A DNA stretch of 26,109 nt from a virus. Positions 17,776-24,377 of the stretch are shown in pieces. The stretch covers positions 1 to 26,109 of the IMG/VR virus record IMGVR_UViG_3300030202_001564; one strand, written 5' to 3'. The notes below the pieces were generated by a model. That model made no database searches. It had not been told where the DNA came from and was given only the letters and a program-made list of their open reading frames with translations. Within the stretch, counting starts at the first letter, position 1, and every line of letters begins with the position of its first letter. The position numbers and the translations under genes are program-made.

Positions 17776-18266
17776 TTAAAAAACCTCGCATACATTCTGT
17801 AATCTGAACCATCAGGCCCATATTGTTTTAAGATACCTTCGGATTCAAAATAACAGCGCTTAGCCCACCTGTCAGCTAGGACATTTGATGTACAGACCGT
17901 GAACTGTAACCGCTTTGTTCTTGTTTGCTGTGCAGCGTATTCAAAAAATTGCAATGCGCCGCGATGAAATGTGATGGTTCGACGTCCCACATGTGCGCTA
18001 GGAATAAGCCAGCCCTCACTGACCCCAGGCCACAATTGATATATGCCAAACATTCCATAAATCTCACCCTCAGACATTGCCGTGAATGCTAAAGAATTGT
18101 TTGTAAGATTTTCTAAATGTTTTTTATAATCAGGAAATGTCGTTAAAATTTTCTTATCAAACTCATTGAGGTCGCAAATATCTAAATGATGTATGTTAAA
18201 TTTTACAATTCGGTCTGTTTCCCAATCCAATCGTAATATTTTTGATAAGCTCTCAGGCGAAAACAT
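17772..18266 (-). CDS. GNAT-like phage protein in the packaging module (164 aa)
   Basis: The segment AMSEGEIYGMFGIYQLWPGV, then SEGWLIPSAHVGRRTITFHR, LQFTVCTSNVLADRWAKRCY and FESEGILKQYGPDGSDYRMY follows the GNAT N-acetyltransferase fold: beta4, then an alpha helix, then 'N--A--W-----F--EG-L--YGP-G-D--MY'. Such proteins are frequent in podovirus structural operons; whether they acetylate anything or act structurally is not established. I chose the ATG at 18266, which overlaps the terminase by 14 bp; a GTG at 18293 would add nine residues. The acetyl-CoA-binding Gly-rich loop is not obvious, so catalysis is uncertain. Confidence 0.65.
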   Translation of the reverse strand: MFSPESLSKILRLDWETDRIVKFNIHHLDICDLNEFDKKILTTFPDYKKHLENLTNNSLAFTAMSEGEIYGMFGIYQLWPGVSEGWLIPSAHVGRRTITFHRGALQFFEYAAQQTRTKRLQFTVCTSNVLADRWAKRCYFESEGILKQYGPDGSDYRMYARFFK

Positions 18267-19773
18267 CAAAATCCAGCACTTTTGCCTGTACACTTTGGCG
18301 ATTTGACGTGGGGCTTCTGGTCATAATGCGATGCTCAGAGCCTAGTAAGCAATATCCAGCTGCGTCCCCAACGTGTGAATGTTCATTTTTGTTAGGCGTA
18401 TCTCTAAATCTTTCATGTCCAGCGCCAACGGCCACCCGTTTAAAGTGATAACCACCTATCAAGGCTTTGCGAAGACGCATACATTTTTTAGAAACAAGAA
18501 ACCCAGGCTTGCCATCAATTAATCTTCCCATCGGAATTGCCATCGCTTCTCTTCGAGTTCTAAATTCGTTGGTTGCGGTAGGTCTGGCTAAAATCCCGTG
18601 TGTTTTTAAATGGTCAAATGCCGTTGTTTCATAGATTTGGTCACGCTGCATGCCAGCTGGGTCGCCCCAAATCATCGTGTCCCACCCAGGAAAATGGCTT
18701 TCAAGTTCAGATTTTAGCATAGAACAAAACCGCTCAAGGCCCATATCAAACGTGACCAGCTCATGCAGTATTTGCCAGCGGTTATTGGGTAGTCTTTGAG
18801 CAAATATAGCTGCTGGTGTCAGTCCAAAGTCTAAGCCAATCTGTATGGGTACGTTCCTTTCGGGCTCGATATCAGCTGCCATTAGCTCATCATTGTACTC
18901 AGGCCATACGGGTCGGCCTTCCTGAACAAACGTGTATTTCCCTTCCGCATAACATCTAATCCAATCGAGGTTTTTACCGCCCAGCAGCTGGTCATAGTAT
19001 CCCGTTGGCAAATTACCAAGGTTCTCAGCCTTGTCATTTGTTTTCCACCACTTTCCAGCTGTGTGCATATACCCTTGTGCTTCGGGCATATCTTCGGGCA
19101 ATTTATCTAACGGAACCTCTAAAACACCGCCAGGTTGCCTAAAAAATTCCCAGGCAAAGCGTCCACCAGGCTTTTCCTTCTCAGCAACACGGTAATACCA
19201 GTGGTCATCATCCATCGGGTTCGTATCCAAAATAATACCGTGCCAAGTAGCCCCTCCATCGGCCTTGGTCGGAAACCGTCCCACGCGGTGGGTTAGGCCA
19301 TCAATCACGGCCTTGGGCAATTCGCGACACTCATTGACCCAGGCGCCCGTAAGTTCCAGGGACAAAAGCTTTCTTACATCTTTGGGGTCATCGAGTGCTA
19401 AGAATATAACTTCCATATCTATTCCAGCGGCCCCATCTCTAGAGGGTAATTTAATATGATGCGTAATGGGCGGTGAGTATTTAACGGGTCCCCAGGTGTT
19501 TTCGGGCAACAACTCCAGCCACGTTTTTAGCGTCGTGGTTCTAAGCATCGGGTGGGTATTTCGCACAATGGCCCATCTTGAATACTTAATTCCATCACGC
19601 GGTGAGGGCTTTTGCTGCACCGCTCTTCGAAATATCTCAGCGCAACAGGCATAAGATTTACCACTGCCCACAGGTCCCATTATTCCCCTGACAAATCCTT
19701 TGCTGTTAAAAAACTTAGCCACAGTGGGTGAGCTGGAAAAATTAAGCTTTAAGCCTTGCTGTTCTTTACTCAT
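18253..19773 (-). CDS. terL: Terminase large subunit (506 aa)
   Basis: The ATPase-nuclease motor that pumps DNA into the procapsid and cuts genome ends. The Walker A motif GPVGSGKS is at residues 33-40; the Walker B/catalytic Glu region is LELTGAWVNECREL, with E148 as the likely catalytic residue. The C-terminal RNase H-like nuclease domain shows IGLDFGLTP (D315), WGDPAG (D371) and HVGDAAGY (D470), the usual acidic triad. All key residues are present and the length is normal. Its start overlaps the small subunit stop as ATGA. It precedes the portal rather than following the fibre as in T7, which separates this phage from T7-type genomes. Confidence 0.93.
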   Translation of the reverse strand: MSKEQQGLKLNFSSSPTVAKFFNSKGFVRGIMGPVGSGKSYACCAEIFRRAVQQKPSPRDGIKYSRWAIVRNTHPMLRTTTLKTWLELLPENTWGPVKYSPPITHHIKLPSRDGAAGIDMEVIFLALDDPKDVRKLLSLELTGAWVNECRELPKAVIDGLTHRVGRFPTKADGGATWHGIILDTNPMDDDHWYYRVAEKEKPGGRFAWEFFRQPGGVLEVPLDKLPEDMPEAQGYMHTAGKWWKTNDKAENLGNLPTGYYDQLLGGKNLDWIRCYAEGKYTFVQEGRPVWPEYNDELMAADIEPERNVPIQIGLDFGLTPAAIFAQRLPNNRWQILHELVTFDMGLERFCSMLKSELESHFPGWDTMIWGDPAGMQRDQIYETTAFDHLKTHGILARPTATNEFRTRREAMAIPMGRLIDGKPGFLVSKKCMRLRKALIGGYHFKRVAVGAGHERFRDTPNKNEHSHVGDAAGYCLLGSEHRIMTRSPTSNRQSVQAKVLDFDVFA

Positions 19774-20561: not shown

Positions 20562-21488
20562 TCATCGTCTTACTTTCATTTTGTTAGTGACCTTGCTTAG
20601 AATAGCCTGTGCATCCATTGGTTCCTTGGCCTTATCTCTTCTTACAATGAAGTATTGCAGTGACTGTACGGGCTGCTTGCCTTTGCTCCTCATCCACTTC
20701 AACAACCTTACTGCATCCTCAATGAACTTATCAGCTGGCTGAGATTGCAGTATGTCCCTGGCAAGTTCGAGCTGTCTCATGTCGTACTTCCAGGGCTTTC
20801 CGTACTGCTCGTACACCTTTTGAGAGTACTCATTGCACAAACGTATACACTCCTCTTCCCGTACTTCTCTTCTTATACTTCTCTTCTGTTGTTTACTCAC
20901 AAGCTGGGGCTTGTAGCTTTTGGGCTCATCTACAAGGTGGGGCTTGTAGGCTGTGCCTATGTCTACAAGCTGGGGCTTGTGGGCTTTAGAGTTATCCACA
21001 GGCTTCTTACGTTTCATATGTCCCTTTGGTCCCCGTGCGGCCAGCTCCATTGTTTCGGTCATATCTAGGACTTCATCCTCTTCACTCTTGGCATCACTGG
21101 GTATGCTTTGCATGACCTCTTTGTATGACATTGTGGGGTCAAATATGACGCGCCACAGAGCGCCTTGTTTACCCCATTCTCTCCGATTGTCCTCTTTACG
21201 TATCTTCTCCAGGTATCCGTACTTTACGAGCCTTCTCATGTGCAGTGAGACTGCTTGCTGTGTGCATTTCATTGTCTTGGCCATTGTAGTTTGGTTGACG
21301 AAGAACGTGGCCGTATAAGTCTTGGCGTGACCGCAGCAGAATGCCAGTACTCTGAGCGTCATTGGGAACTGATTGAACCGCTCGTCTACAATTGAACGTC
21401 CTGGTAATACAGCTGTTCCCCCTGGGGATTGATAGTGACCTTTGGGTGCGTCACGTATTGGGTCAGGTGCGAGGTCAGTCTTTAGCAT
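20562..21488 (-). CDS. Winged-helix replication initiator with intragenic origin (308 aa)
   Basis: The N-terminal domain (~residues 30-118) reads as a winged helix: DERFNQFPMTLRVLAFCC, recognition region VNQTTMAKTMKCTQQAVSLH and MRRLVKYGYLEKIRKE, then a wing ending WRVIFDP. A charged linker carries three 11-residue repeats with core KPQLV / KPHLV / KPQLV (residues 170-202), encoded by iterons. The C-terminal part (EYSQKVYEQYGKPWKYDMRQ, then ADKFIEDAVRLLKWM) is helical, like DnaD/replisome-loading domains of phage initiators. By analogy to lambda O it would bind its own coding sequence and load the helicase; no helicase gene is in the window, so host DnaB is the likely partner. The ATG at 21488 overlaps the upstream gene by 14 bp. 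No close family is recalled, so the initiator call is inference from domain plus iterons. Confidence 0.68.
   Translation of the reverse strand: MLKTDLAPDPIRDAPKGHYQSPGGTAVLPGRSIVDERFNQFPMTLRVLAFCCGHAKTYTATFFVNQTTMAKTMKCTQQAVSLHMRRLVKYGYLEKIRKEDNRREWGKQGALWRVIFDPTMSYKEVMQSIPSDAKSEEDEVLDMTETMELAARGPKGHMKRKKPVDNSKAHKPQLVDIGTAYKPHLVDEPKSYKPQLVSKQQKRSIRREVREEECIRLCNEYSQKVYEQYGKPWKYDMRQLELARDILQSQPADKFIEDAVRLLKWMRSKGKQPVQSLQYFIVRRDKAKEPMDAQAILSKVTNKMKVRR
20862..20887. repeat. 12-bp direct repeats, candidate unwinding element
   Basis: TACTTCTCTTCT occurs at 20862-20873 and 20876-20887 (14-bp period), within a polypyrimidine/polypurine tract at about 20850-20898. It lies right beside the iterons, where lambda-type origins have their easily melted region. 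The assignment as an unwinding element is inference. Confidence 0.4.
20899..20914. repeat. Iteron 1 (palindromic)
   Basis: Plus-strand ACAAGC-TGGG-GCTTGT is a perfect 6-bp inverted repeat with 4-base spacer. The idealised element on the minus strand is CTACAAGCCCCAGCTTGTAG. It lies 33 bp from iteron 2. Confidence 0.75.
20932..20947. repeat. Iteron 2
   Basis: ACAAGGTGGGGCTTGT differs from iterons 1 and 3 at a single base (the C of the left arm). It is exactly 33 bp from each neighbour, about three helical turns. Confidence 0.75.
20965..20980. repeat. Iteron 3 (palindromic)
   Basis: It is identical over 16 bp to iteron 1, 66 bp away, and sits 11 bp from the DnaA box. Codons for K-P and L-V use the same third bases in all three copies, which suggests selection on the DNA itself. 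Confidence 0.75.
20992..21000 (+). promoter_or_regulatory. Perfect DnaA box in the putative origin
   Basis: TTATCCACA matches the E. coli DnaA-box consensus at all nine positions. It lies inside the initiator gene, directly next to iteron 3. Together with the iterons and pyrimidine tract it makes 20850-21000 the best origin candidate. Confidence 0.65.
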
Positions 21489-21645
21489 TAGATATAATCT
21501 CTATCTTGCCGTAACCATCACACATGCCACAGGTCTGTTCCTTGGTGTTGTCCTCATTCACTGGGTCAACTTCCAAGAAACAGCCAGCTCCTTCACACAG
21601 CCAGCATTCTATTTCAGTAGTTTTACTTGAAACGGAACAATGCAC
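21475..21645 (-). CDS. Small zinc-ribbon-like protein with two CxxC-Gly motifs (56 aa)
   Basis: CWLCEGAGC and CGMCDGYGK form a pair of CxxCxGxG-like knuckles, as in the zinc centre of DnaJ and many small phage zinc proteins, so one zinc ion is probably bound. The reading frame extends upstream to 21813, but that part is covered by another gene. I chose the GTG at 21645, which has GGAG seven bases upstream and gives a 23-bp overlap with the previous gene. The stop overlaps the initiator start by 14 bp, so both are likely translated together. The partner is unknown; an accessory role in replication is inferred from position. Confidence 0.55.
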   Translation of the reverse strand: MHCSVSSKTTEIECWLCEGAGCFLEVDPVNEDNTKEQTCGMCDGYGKIEIISNAKD

Positions 21646-21850
21646 GGAAGCGCTCCAGTATTGTAGTTCGTGGGTTGCATCGAGGACAATCAACGTTGGT
21701 GCATTTGCACTTGTAGAGAATGTACTCCAGTTGATTTTCTGTGAGATTATACATCTCCGCGATTTCATGGTTCTTGAGCTTGTCTTCCACAAAACCGTGA
21801 TAATGAATTTCATCGATAATTAACTGATTGTATTTTATAGGTCTAACCAT
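21623..21850 (-). CDS. Small HTH and Cys-cluster protein (75 aa)
   Basis: Residues ~24-45 (KLKNHEIAEMYNLTENQLEY) look like a helix-turn-helix; they are followed by a Cys cluster CKCTNVDCPRC that could bind zinc, and a basic end (FRALFRFK). The protein may be a small DNA-binding regulator or a nuclease accessory. The ATG at 21850 has GAGG about seven bases upstream and lies inside the end of the nuclease gene (16-bp overlap). I do not recognise a named family. Confidence 0.5.
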   Translation of the reverse strand: MVRPIKYNQLIIDEIHYHGFVEDKLKNHEIAEMYNLTENQLEYILYKCKCTNVDCPRCNPRTTILERFRALFRFK

Positions 21851-22330: not shown

Positions 22331-22813
22331 TTAAGTATCGAGCTCCTTCACCAATATTAAATACTCTTCTAAAATCTTTTCTTCTTTAAGCAGTCCAAAA
22401 GCTTTCTTTTTGCCCATTAAAATAGTGGTGTGGTCTCGATTAAATGCTTCACCTATCTCGGTGGTGCTTTGACCCGTCAGCTGATGCGCTAAAAGATACG
22501 CTAGCTGCCGCCAGCCTGTCAGTGTTGAAAGCCTGGAGTGTCCCAGTAAATCGGTCACGCTTACGTTTGCTCGCTTGGCGACGGCTCTGGCAACGTCATT
22601 CGGCGATACGGTGAACCCGATATTTCGACGATTACCGTGCCTGGATAAAGTGCTTCTACCAGCTTCTTCTTTAACTTGTAGATGTCCGTCTTGTACCCTT
22701 TGACGTCCTCTATCACCTGACACCCGATTTGACCCTGGGGACCTATCTTTGTCTTTGAAAGGTAGCGAAAGTCGGCCAGATAATCGCACACTTTTTTCCC
22801 GTTTATCTCGCAT
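22331..22813 (-). CDS. Stand-alone DnaA domain IV protein (up to 160 aa, start uncertain)
   Basis: Residues ~70-145 match the DNA-binding domain IV of DnaA: VSVTDLLGHSRLSTLTGWRQ, then LAYLLAHQLTGQSTTEIGEA and FNRDHTTIL. Aligned by eye with E. coli DnaA, the DNA-contact residues are kept (R94 ~ R399, R102/Q103 ~ R407/Q408, D127-H128-T129-T130 ~ D433-T436). There is no AAA+ ATPase domain, so it can bind DnaA boxes but not build an initiation filament. The first ~60 residues are coded opposite no gene but inside the DUF1064 frame (253-bp overlap) and look like frame shadow (Arg/Ser/Gly-rich). No ATG, GTG or TTG lies just before the domain; GTG at 22723, GTG at 22789 or ATG at 22813 are the available starts, or a -1 shift from the DUF1064 gene. 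Confidence 0.72.
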   Translation of the reverse strand: MRDKREKSVRLSGRLSLPFKDKDRSPGSNRVSGDRGRQRVQDGHLQVKEEAGRSTLSRHGNRRNIGFTVSPNDVARAVAKRANVSVTDLLGHSRLSTLTGWRQLAYLLAHQLTGQSTTEIGEAFNRDHTTILMGKKKAFGLLKEEKILEEYLILVKELDT

Positions 22814-22971
22814 CGTATTCTCGGCTGAAGTTCCAAGTTTCTAATTTCACCGCGCTCAAAAGCTGGCTTAAGTGTAAAATAATAGTGCTTTGCTTCAGCC
22901 TGGCTATCAAATTTATGCCCATCAATAGTTACCTTTTTGTTAGAATATTTGTTTCTTCGCGTTTTAAACAT
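22561..22971 (-). CDS. DUF1064 family nuclease-like protein (136 aa)
   Basis: NKYSNKKVTIDGHKFDSQAE, then AFERGEIRNLELQPRIRCEI, DYLADFRY and VIEDVKGYKTDIYKLKKKLV is the full signature of the DUF1064 family of phage proteins, thought to be PD-(D/E)XK endonucleases. Possible active-site residues are E26, D67 and E88-D-V-K91. The ATG at 22971 has AAGG six bases upstream; an upstream TTG adds two residues. It is the first gene of the long leftward operon. The C-terminal ~20 residues after the last strand (EISGSPYRRMTLPEPSPSEQ) overlap the DnaA-like frame and are probably not essential to the fold. Confidence 0.75.
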   Translation of the reverse strand: MFKTRRNKYSNKKVTIDGHKFDSQAEAKHYYFTLKPAFERGEIRNLELQPRIRCEINGKKVCDYLADFRYLSKTKIGPQGQIGCQVIEDVKGYKTDIYKLKKKLVEALYPGTVIVEISGSPYRRMTLPEPSPSEQT

Positions 22972-22992
22972 ACACAACCTTACGATTTGGAC

Positions 22993-23021
22993 TTGTACAC
23001 AGCTTAATCACAACCTATATG
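22993..23021 (+). promoter_or_regulatory. Candidate promoter of the rightward recombinase operon
   Basis: TTGTAC (22993-22998) and TATATG (23016-23021) are separated by 17 bp, a fair sigma-70 match (4/6 and 5/6). Transcription would begin near 23028. That excludes the ATG at 23024 from the mRNA and favours the GTG at 23054. The same 52-bp gap must hold the leftward promoter, for which I find no good match. Confidence 0.45.
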
Positions 23022-23053
23022 TTATGGCAACGGGTACAAATGAAGGAAATTTA

Positions 23054-23620
23054 GTGTACAAATCACGTAAATTGGTCAAGTTACTAACTGAAGGCGAAGT
23101 AGACAGCTTGCTAGCTGTTGCAGCCCGTGACCCGTTTCACGATGCAGTTATTAAAACATTTTATATGTGTGGGCTACGGGTCAGTGAGCTGGTGTCGCTG
23201 CCAAGTCAGATACTTAAAGCCAACTCAGATATGATTTTCATAACAGGGAAGGGGGGTCGTGAGCGCATGGTGCCTTTTCCCCCAGTTGTGCGTGATTGCC
23301 TGATGAACTGTAAGCCAGGCGCACAATATATATTCCCAAAAGGAAATGGTCATATAAGTCGCCAGGCCATTTTAAACATTATTAAAGAATTAGCGCAGAG
23401 TGCTGGCATTCGACAAACCGTTACGCCCCACCAGCTGCGCCATTCATTTGCCACCCACATGTTAGAGGGTGGGGCAGACCTAGTGAGTTTAATGTTGCTC
23501 CTGGGGCATTCAGACATTTCAACAACTGAGAAATATCTGCATGTGAGAACCAAGCATTTAATTGAGACTATAAAGAAACATCCATTAGCGAGGGAGAACA
23601 ATGGAACAAACACACTATAG
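23054..23620 (+). CDS. Short tyrosine recombinase / integrase catalytic domain (188 aa)
   Basis: The catalytic set is complete: R42 (CGLRVSEL), K66 (TGKGGRER), H126 and R129 (HQLRHSFATH), H152 (LGHSDIST) and nucleophile Y161 (EKYLHV). It is related to XerC/XerD-type recombinases. At 188 residues it has only the catalytic domain; the N-terminal SAM-like core-binding domain and any arm-binding domain are missing, since upstream in-frame sequence offers only ~40 codons. I chose the GTG at 23054 because AAGGA is six bases upstream and the candidate promoter would start transcription downstream of the ATG at 23024, which adds ten residues. The stop overlaps the serine recombinase by 20 bp. It may integrate the phage or resolve dimers. 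Confidence 0.83.
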   Translation: MYKSRKLVKLLTEGEVDSLLAVAARDPFHDAVIKTFYMCGLRVSELVSLPSQILKANSDMIFITGKGGRERMVPFPPVVRDCLMNCKPGAQYIFPKGNGHISRQAILNIIKELAQSAGIRQTVTPHQLRHSFATHMLEGGADLVSLMLLLGHSDISTTEKYLHVRTKHLIETIKKHPLARENNGTNTL

Positions 23621-24377
23621 ACCTGACCACGGGCAAGAGCATAGCGGCAAGTACGCGGCGTATGTCAGGGTCAGTACAGACAAACAGGACGTTAAGACCC
23701 AAGAGTTTCGCATTAAGAACTATCTTAATGGCGGTGACTACCAGGTTAAATGGTTTCGCGATGAGGGTGTCAGTTCTGGTAAAGATTGGCACAAACGCGA
23801 AGCATTACAACTTTGCCTGGATTACTGCCGCAAAAATGAAGCAACGTTAATTATCTATTCAATATCTCGAATGGCTAGACGTACTTGGGAAGCGCTGCGG
23901 TTTTTAGAACAAGAAGTACTGCCAGGTAAAATTAAACTAGTGGTCGTTGATAATCCAAACCTCGACCATAAAACGGTCGGGTTGCTTGCAGCTGTTGCTG
24001 AGATGGAGCGCGCCAACATAAGAGAGCGCACAAAAGCTTCAATAGACCGCATTCAAGCTGAAATAAAAGAAAAGGGTTATTTTGTTAGCAAAGCTGGCAA
24101 GCGCTTAACGTCTCTAGGTTCCAGGCAAATGAATGCGATTTCCAAAAAAGGAACTGAAACTGTTATTGACGCAACAAATGAACGGACACAAGAAGTAGGC
24201 CCGTTAATTGCAAAGTATCGAAAAGATAATATTAGCTATAGAGATATTGCAGCACACTTAAATCGATTAAGTATTCCAACGCCCACCAAGCTTAGAAACC
24301 CCGATACAACAGTAAAAAATATCTGGCATGCTAGCTCTGTGCGTAATTATTACCTGAGATATGAGGGAGATAAATAA
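23601..24377 (+). CDS. Serine recombinase, resolvase/invertase type (258 aa)
   Basis: YAAYVRVSTDKQD puts the nucleophile at S25 with R23 nearby. Other family motifs follow: WFRDEGVSSGKDWHKREAL, IIYSISRMARRTWEALRFL and AAVAEMERANIRERTKAS (the long dimerisation E-helix). Residues ~200-250 form a C-terminal helix-turn-helix (YRKDNISYRDIAAHLNRLSI), with a final WHASSVRNYYLRYEG. All catalytic-domain parts are present. It is longer than Hin/resolvase (~190) but lacks the large-serine-integrase zinc domain. GAGGGAG lies close to the ATG and the gene overlaps the tyrosine recombinase by 20 bp. It could invert or resolve phage DNA; target sites are not seen. Confidence 0.88.
   Translation: MEQTHYRPDHGQEHSGKYAAYVRVSTDKQDVKTQEFRIKNYLNGGDYQVKWFRDEGVSSGKDWHKREALQLCLDYCRKNEATLIIYSISRMARRTWEALRFLEQEVLPGKIKLVVVDNPNLDHKTVGLLAAVAEMERANIRERTKASIDRIQAEIKEKGYFVSKAGKRLTSLGSRQMNAISKKGTETVIDATNERTQEVGPLIAKYRKDNISYRDIAAHLNRLSIPTPTKLRNPDTTVKNIWHASSVRNYYLRYEGDK

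Follow-up and report, generated by a model that had tools for sequence, protein, structure and literature searches.

Small proteins corresponding to the C-terminal part of DnaA are already annotated in many phages, and hundreds of them are present in BFVD. Annotated examples come from the Pelagibacter phages HTVC203P and Greip, Octadecabacter DB virus 2 (gp52), EBPR podovirus 2 (gp7), and the Cellulophaga phage phi19:3. A literature search, in which subscription journals were thinly covered, retrieved no functional study of these proteins; this is a weak negative. Diverting the host replication machinery is a frequent need of phages. YfdR, a protein of an E. coli cryptic prophage, is linked to host initiation and binds DnaA (PMC4776307). 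Two known origins provide further points of comparison, the lambda origin with its iterons inside gene O and the P1 plasmid origin, which is composed of iterons and a DnaA box (Abeles, 1990, as cited in PMC5043065).

The DNA analyzed here, referred to as the window, is an IMG/VR virus fragment of 26,109 nucleotides. Its large terminase (18253-19773) is 67% identical to that of the Methylophilales (OM43) phage MEP301. In MEP301, the closest cultured phage by terminase, no match to domain IV of DnaA was found; this phage has a RusA gene. Genome contigs scanned with the initiator protein of the window yielded no prophage hits pointing to a host. The window encodes a stand-alone DnaA C-terminal protein, that is, a domain IV without the ATPase located in a phage replication module:

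22331..22789, minus strand: stand-alone DnaA domain IV protein, 152 aa from its probable start (PF08299, family start codon, AlphaFold2 model)
22334..22609, minus strand: domain IV proper, residues 61-152 (six predicted helices, Z 18.0 to 1j1v)

The open reading frame at 22331-22813 on the minus strand is present in the window and holds a complete DnaA domain IV. Its residues 72-137 score 62.3 bits against Pfam family PF08299 (Bac_DnaA_C; E 4e-17), exceeding the curated cut-off of 31.5 bits. The NCBIfam DnaA models align to it via their C-terminal positions only (344-429 of 437 for TIGR00362). It is matched by phmmer to the E. coli domain IV 1j1v (1.7e-9) and, likewise on the sequence level, to the M. 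tuberculosis domain IV. Searches against Pfam and NCBIfam found no AAA+ module, PF08299 being the sole domain above the cut-off, which agrees with the preliminary description of a DnaA-type domain without the ATPase. The protein is not a full DnaA initiator, which has the AAA+ domain III and the N-terminal domain I. It was assigned to no PHROG family, and its homologue in locus L018 gives only a weak match to phrog_16091.

In the AlphaFold2 model of the 152-aa protein, built with 34 aligned sequences, residues 1-60 are disordered, and residues 61-152 form six confident helices with pLDDT mostly 92-97. The model resembles the box-bound E. coli domain IV 1j1v (Z 18.0, rmsd 1.0 Å, 92 residues) and M. 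tuberculosis 3pvp (Z 17.9), whereas for non-DnaA helix-turn-helix proteins Z is 6.2 or less. Given this difference, the predicted structure is not that of a generic helix-turn-helix protein, the possibility that the preliminary description had raised against its own interpretation. By sequence and predicted structure, the product is a DnaA domain IV with the full-length fold and without the ATPase.

Compared with DnaA domain IV (PF08299; PDB 1j1v, 3pvp), the window protein has the same fold, helix-turn-helix, and several of the same contact residues, but it lacks domains I-III and carries a 60-aa disordered leader. The bases of the DnaA box are contacted in E. coli DnaA by R399, P423, D433, H434, T435, and H439, and position 423 may differ among DnaAs with similar specificity (PMC7561715; PMC5043019). 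All main DNA contacts had been proposed to be retained; this is true for the equivalents of R399, R407, Q408, D433, H434, T435, and T436, but not for P423, H439, R401, and P406, which are replaced by T, M, S, and W, respectively. In the alignment of 34 non-redundant family members, where the mean column identity is only 30%, the equivalents of R399, R407, and R432 are found in 34/34 proteins and those of D433 and H434 in 33/34, and positions 435-436 are always T or S. The variable positions are P423, H439, and P406, with P406W in 19/34. Because the contact residues are near-invariant and position 423 tolerates variation, the domain IV protein likely reads DnaA boxes.

The putative replication origin of the phage lies within its initiator gene and comprises the following elements:

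20562..21488, minus strand: O-like/DnaD-like replication initiator, with the origin in a predicted disordered linker (weak phrog_270/391 and helix-turn-helix matches)
20992..21000, plus strand: perfect DnaA box TTATCCACA, 11 bp from iteron 1, within the initiator gene
20965..20980, no strand: iteron 1, an ACAAG-N6-CTTGT dyad
20932..20947, no strand: iteron 2
20899..20914, no strand: iteron 3
20893..20901, minus strand: degenerate box-like TGTGAGTAA abutting iteron 3 ([AT]GTNN[AG]TAA in 29/35 clusters)
20839..20898, no strand: AT-richer stretch past the iterons (62% AT in the window), a candidate unwinding element

The initiator homologue in L018 matches phrog_270 with E 9e-7. In the predicted structure of the window's initiator, the linker residues 149-206 have pLDDT below 50; the model as a whole was too uncertain (mean pLDDT 57), and a fold search with it was dropped.

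The perfect DnaA box reported in the preliminary description is indeed present inside the initiator gene, next to three ACAAG-N6-CTTGT iterons at 33-bp spacing. Box count alone is non-significant in 26 kb, with one perfect copy and looser patterns at chance level. A scan of viral contigs for a box plus an iteron yielded 55 stretches, 54 of them within homologues of the window's initiator. For a sample independent of the box, 80 loci were retrieved by the initiator protein; together with the window, they form 35 clusters at 90% identity. The exact box occurs in 66/80 of these loci and in 30/35 clusters (window included). The expectation from codon usage, given the amino acids xVD[KN], is 0.03-0.04 (product of codon fractions), far below the observed frequency, although the excess is no formal probability, since the clusters share ancestry. 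In L132 (4499-4527), the usual single TGTGGATAA is replaced by two TTATCCACA boxes that are inverted, lie 19 bp from each other, and hence occupy different reading frames. The 60 nt past the last iteron are on average 73% AT in the family, compared with 53% for the gene. The [AT]GTNN[AG]TAA element right after the last iteron may mark the boundary of the unwinding element or serve as a weak site for DnaA. As judged from these comparisons, conservation of the box, its spacing, and the iterons extends to the DNA sequence itself, and the origin is real.

In structure, this origin looks like a lambda-type iteron array in an O-like initiator gene combined with a P1-like DnaA box. As in lambda, the iterons are situated where the initiator gene encodes the linker, and an AT-rich stretch follows them; the window differs in having a DnaA box beside the iterons, another iteron sequence, and an initiator that is only remotely O-like. 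As in the P1 plasmid, tandem iterons adjoin one or few DnaA boxes, but here the initiator gene contains the origin, and a domain IV protein is encoded by the phage as well. The family offers a conserved phage origin in which iterons and a DnaA box are linked.

The family consists mostly of marine phages, most of which keep a DnaA box in their own putative origin, and the tree suggests that the box and the protein were probably both ancestral. The preliminary description regarded a dedicated system of the two as plausible. Strict pairing is ruled out by phages that have only one of the two. In the clade of L141, L144, L147, and L151, the box is exact and no PF08299 match was found on the contigs, which are fragments; on these contigs, the DUF1064 gene leads straight into the initiator gene at the place expected for domain IV. 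Conversely, L093, L094, L096, L099, L154, L155, and L156 retain domain IV and have no exact box, and the contact residues are intact in those that were aligned (L093, L094, L096, L099, L154, and L156). L025 was scored as lacking domain IV in the cluster table, a call that may merely reflect how little upstream DNA is available for it. Whole DnaA proteins in records labeled as phage, such as H3, H5, H10, H12, and H19, were excluded because these records probably represent host DNA or contamination. Since the box stays exact in the clade lacking domain IV, it is best read as a site for host DnaA, and the retention of contact residues in phages without the exact box suggests that the protein has targets outside that box.

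The annotated phage DnaA C-terminal proteins are likewise stand-alone domains IV, and several of them adjoin O-like initiators. Unlike the window, the loci examined have neither a perfect DnaA box, as far as the loci were read, nor an out-of-frame overlap with DUF1064. The domain IV gene directly precedes an O-like/DnaD-like initiator gene in MW202613 and EBPR2 and is within two genes of one in DB2 and L003. Because of this proximity in four unrelated phages, a role of the domain IV protein in replication is likely.

The reading that we tentatively favor is that the protein is a phage-controlled competitor of host DnaA that binds boxes independently of ATP. With its flexible 60-residue leader and domain IV, the 152-aa protein would attach to TTATCCACA boxes in duplex DNA as a single unit. 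Lacking domains I-III, it cannot oligomerize, melt DNA, or load the helicase as DnaA does, and a box binder without these parts should act by box occupancy. Host DnaA would lose boxes to it mainly at the host oriC, a target that we infer from what is missing, and perhaps also at the single box beside the phage iterons. The preliminary description had likewise suggested that the protein could occupy the phage box, recruit or exclude host DnaA, or titrate the host oriC. As a result, host initiation would be damped, the timing of host-DnaA use at the phage origin would be set, or both. The protein may share with YfdR the nature of a prophage-encoded product linked to host initiation; YfdR, however, binds DnaA, whereas the window protein resembles the DNA-binding part of DnaA. 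A phage copy of the box-reading part alone would provide direct control over the placement of host DnaA. Two considerations speak against such competition: P423T and H439M change two base-contact positions of E. coli DnaA, and the phage's own box would also be blocked if host DnaA is needed there. The family of 80 initiator loci and the window, in 35 clusters, offers natural matched pairs lacking either the box or the domain in which the competition idea can be addressed.

Somewhat less likely is an accessory role at the phage origin, with domain IV on the box beside the iterons aiding the O-like initiator by bending or by contacts of the leader, so that the origin would open without host DnaA. 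The DNA-level conservation of box, spacing, and iterons (exact box in 30/35 clusters, two inverted boxes in L132) is consistent with this role, as are the likely ancestral co-presence of box and protein on the tree and the domain IV gene abutting the initiator gene in several relatives. It is at odds with the box without domain IV in one clade, with domain IV without the exact box in others, and with the five unrelated domain IV phages MW202613, EBPR2, DB2, L003, and contig405706, where TTATNCACA was not found in the loci read.

Regulation of transcription is improbable. Host DnaA doubles as a transcription factor, and a helix-turn-helix of the DnaA-box type could act on phage or host promoters in the same manner; EBPR2 gp7 weakly matches a PHROG repressor family. 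However, no further perfect boxes were seen at promoters in the window, and the domain IV gene sits in replication modules. At least as improbable is a domain IV fold with altered DNA specificity, for example toward the iterons or the post-iteron element TGTNNATAA. The substitution of W for P406 in more than half of the family, the variability of P423 and H439, and the presence of the post-iteron element in 29/35 clusters would fit such a change, but hardly any variation is seen in the strongest base contacts.

The domain IV gene overlaps the neighboring gene in a different frame:

22561..22977, minus strand: DUF1064/phrog_190 Holliday-junction-resolvase-like gene (Pfam 66 bits, PHROG 100 bits)
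22610..22789, minus strand: N-terminal leader of ~60 aa, predicted disordered (pLDDT ~50), out of frame within the DUF1064 gene

The phase of the overlap is identical in all 50 of the 50 loci carrying both genes. In most of the 34 non-redundant relatives, the start codon is exactly 61 aa before the domain and is preceded by a Shine-Dalgarno-like GGGA, GGAGG, or AGGAGG. The family start codon and such a sequence (cGGGA) fall at GTG 22789 in the window, which is therefore probably the start of the gene. Thus, the open reading frame of the preliminary description exists, but the start moves from ATG 22813 to GTG 22789, and the 483-nt frame was dropped as the gene.

The overlapping frame was assessed by resampling codons with the DUF1064 protein held fixed. 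The chance of an open alternative frame is 5e-5 for codons 1-64 in the window and 8e-5 for codons 1 to 66 in L018; counted from codon 9, it is ~3e-4. Synonymous-site constraint was abandoned as a proof of coding: the pair L018/L019 pointed that way (1.2% vs. 8.4%), but no general drop in the overlap was seen across 62 close pairs (0.215 vs. 0.222). Neither does the open frame prove that domain IV depends on it, as most phages lacking the domain retain an 80-aa open reading frame there with the same ATG. Because synonymous change is not generally reduced and this remnant is retained in most such relatives, the leader, which is probably translated, appears to be under little sequence constraint. 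In L141 (3756-3995), L147 (3744-3995), and L144 (3748-4005), the frames of 80-86 aa, in the alternative frame of DUF1064, start with MRLHSRL or MRLHCRL; they may be remnants or serve a function of their own.

Production of domain IV as a DUF1064 fusion by -1 frameshifting is very improbable and was rejected: the -1 phase is constant in the 50 pairs, and in L018 (5380-5766, codon 116) and L019 a TTTAAAG heptamer stands in the slippery register at the end of DUF1064, at the onset of domain IV in the -1 frame, but the heptamer was not found in the window, being restricted to L018/L019 among the three loci checked, and the start codon and Shine-Dalgarno-like sequence are conserved at a fixed place.

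Returning to competition with host DnaA, a broader scenario combines it with these features. A widespread phage family would encode a DnaA decoy, an ATPase-less domain IV protein whose gene is nested within a resolvase-like gene in another frame. The decoy would swap with host DnaA at boxes, switch off oriC, and time a phage origin of the lambda type at which host DnaA is used; as a whole, this scenario is possible but rather doubtful.

Two other observations concern the gene neighborhood. A small protein encoded at 21475-21813, near the initiator gene, has a weak match to a DnaJ-type zinc finger. Genes for a tyrosine recombinase and a serine recombinase lie side by side at 22937-24377 on the plus strand, divergent from the replication genes.
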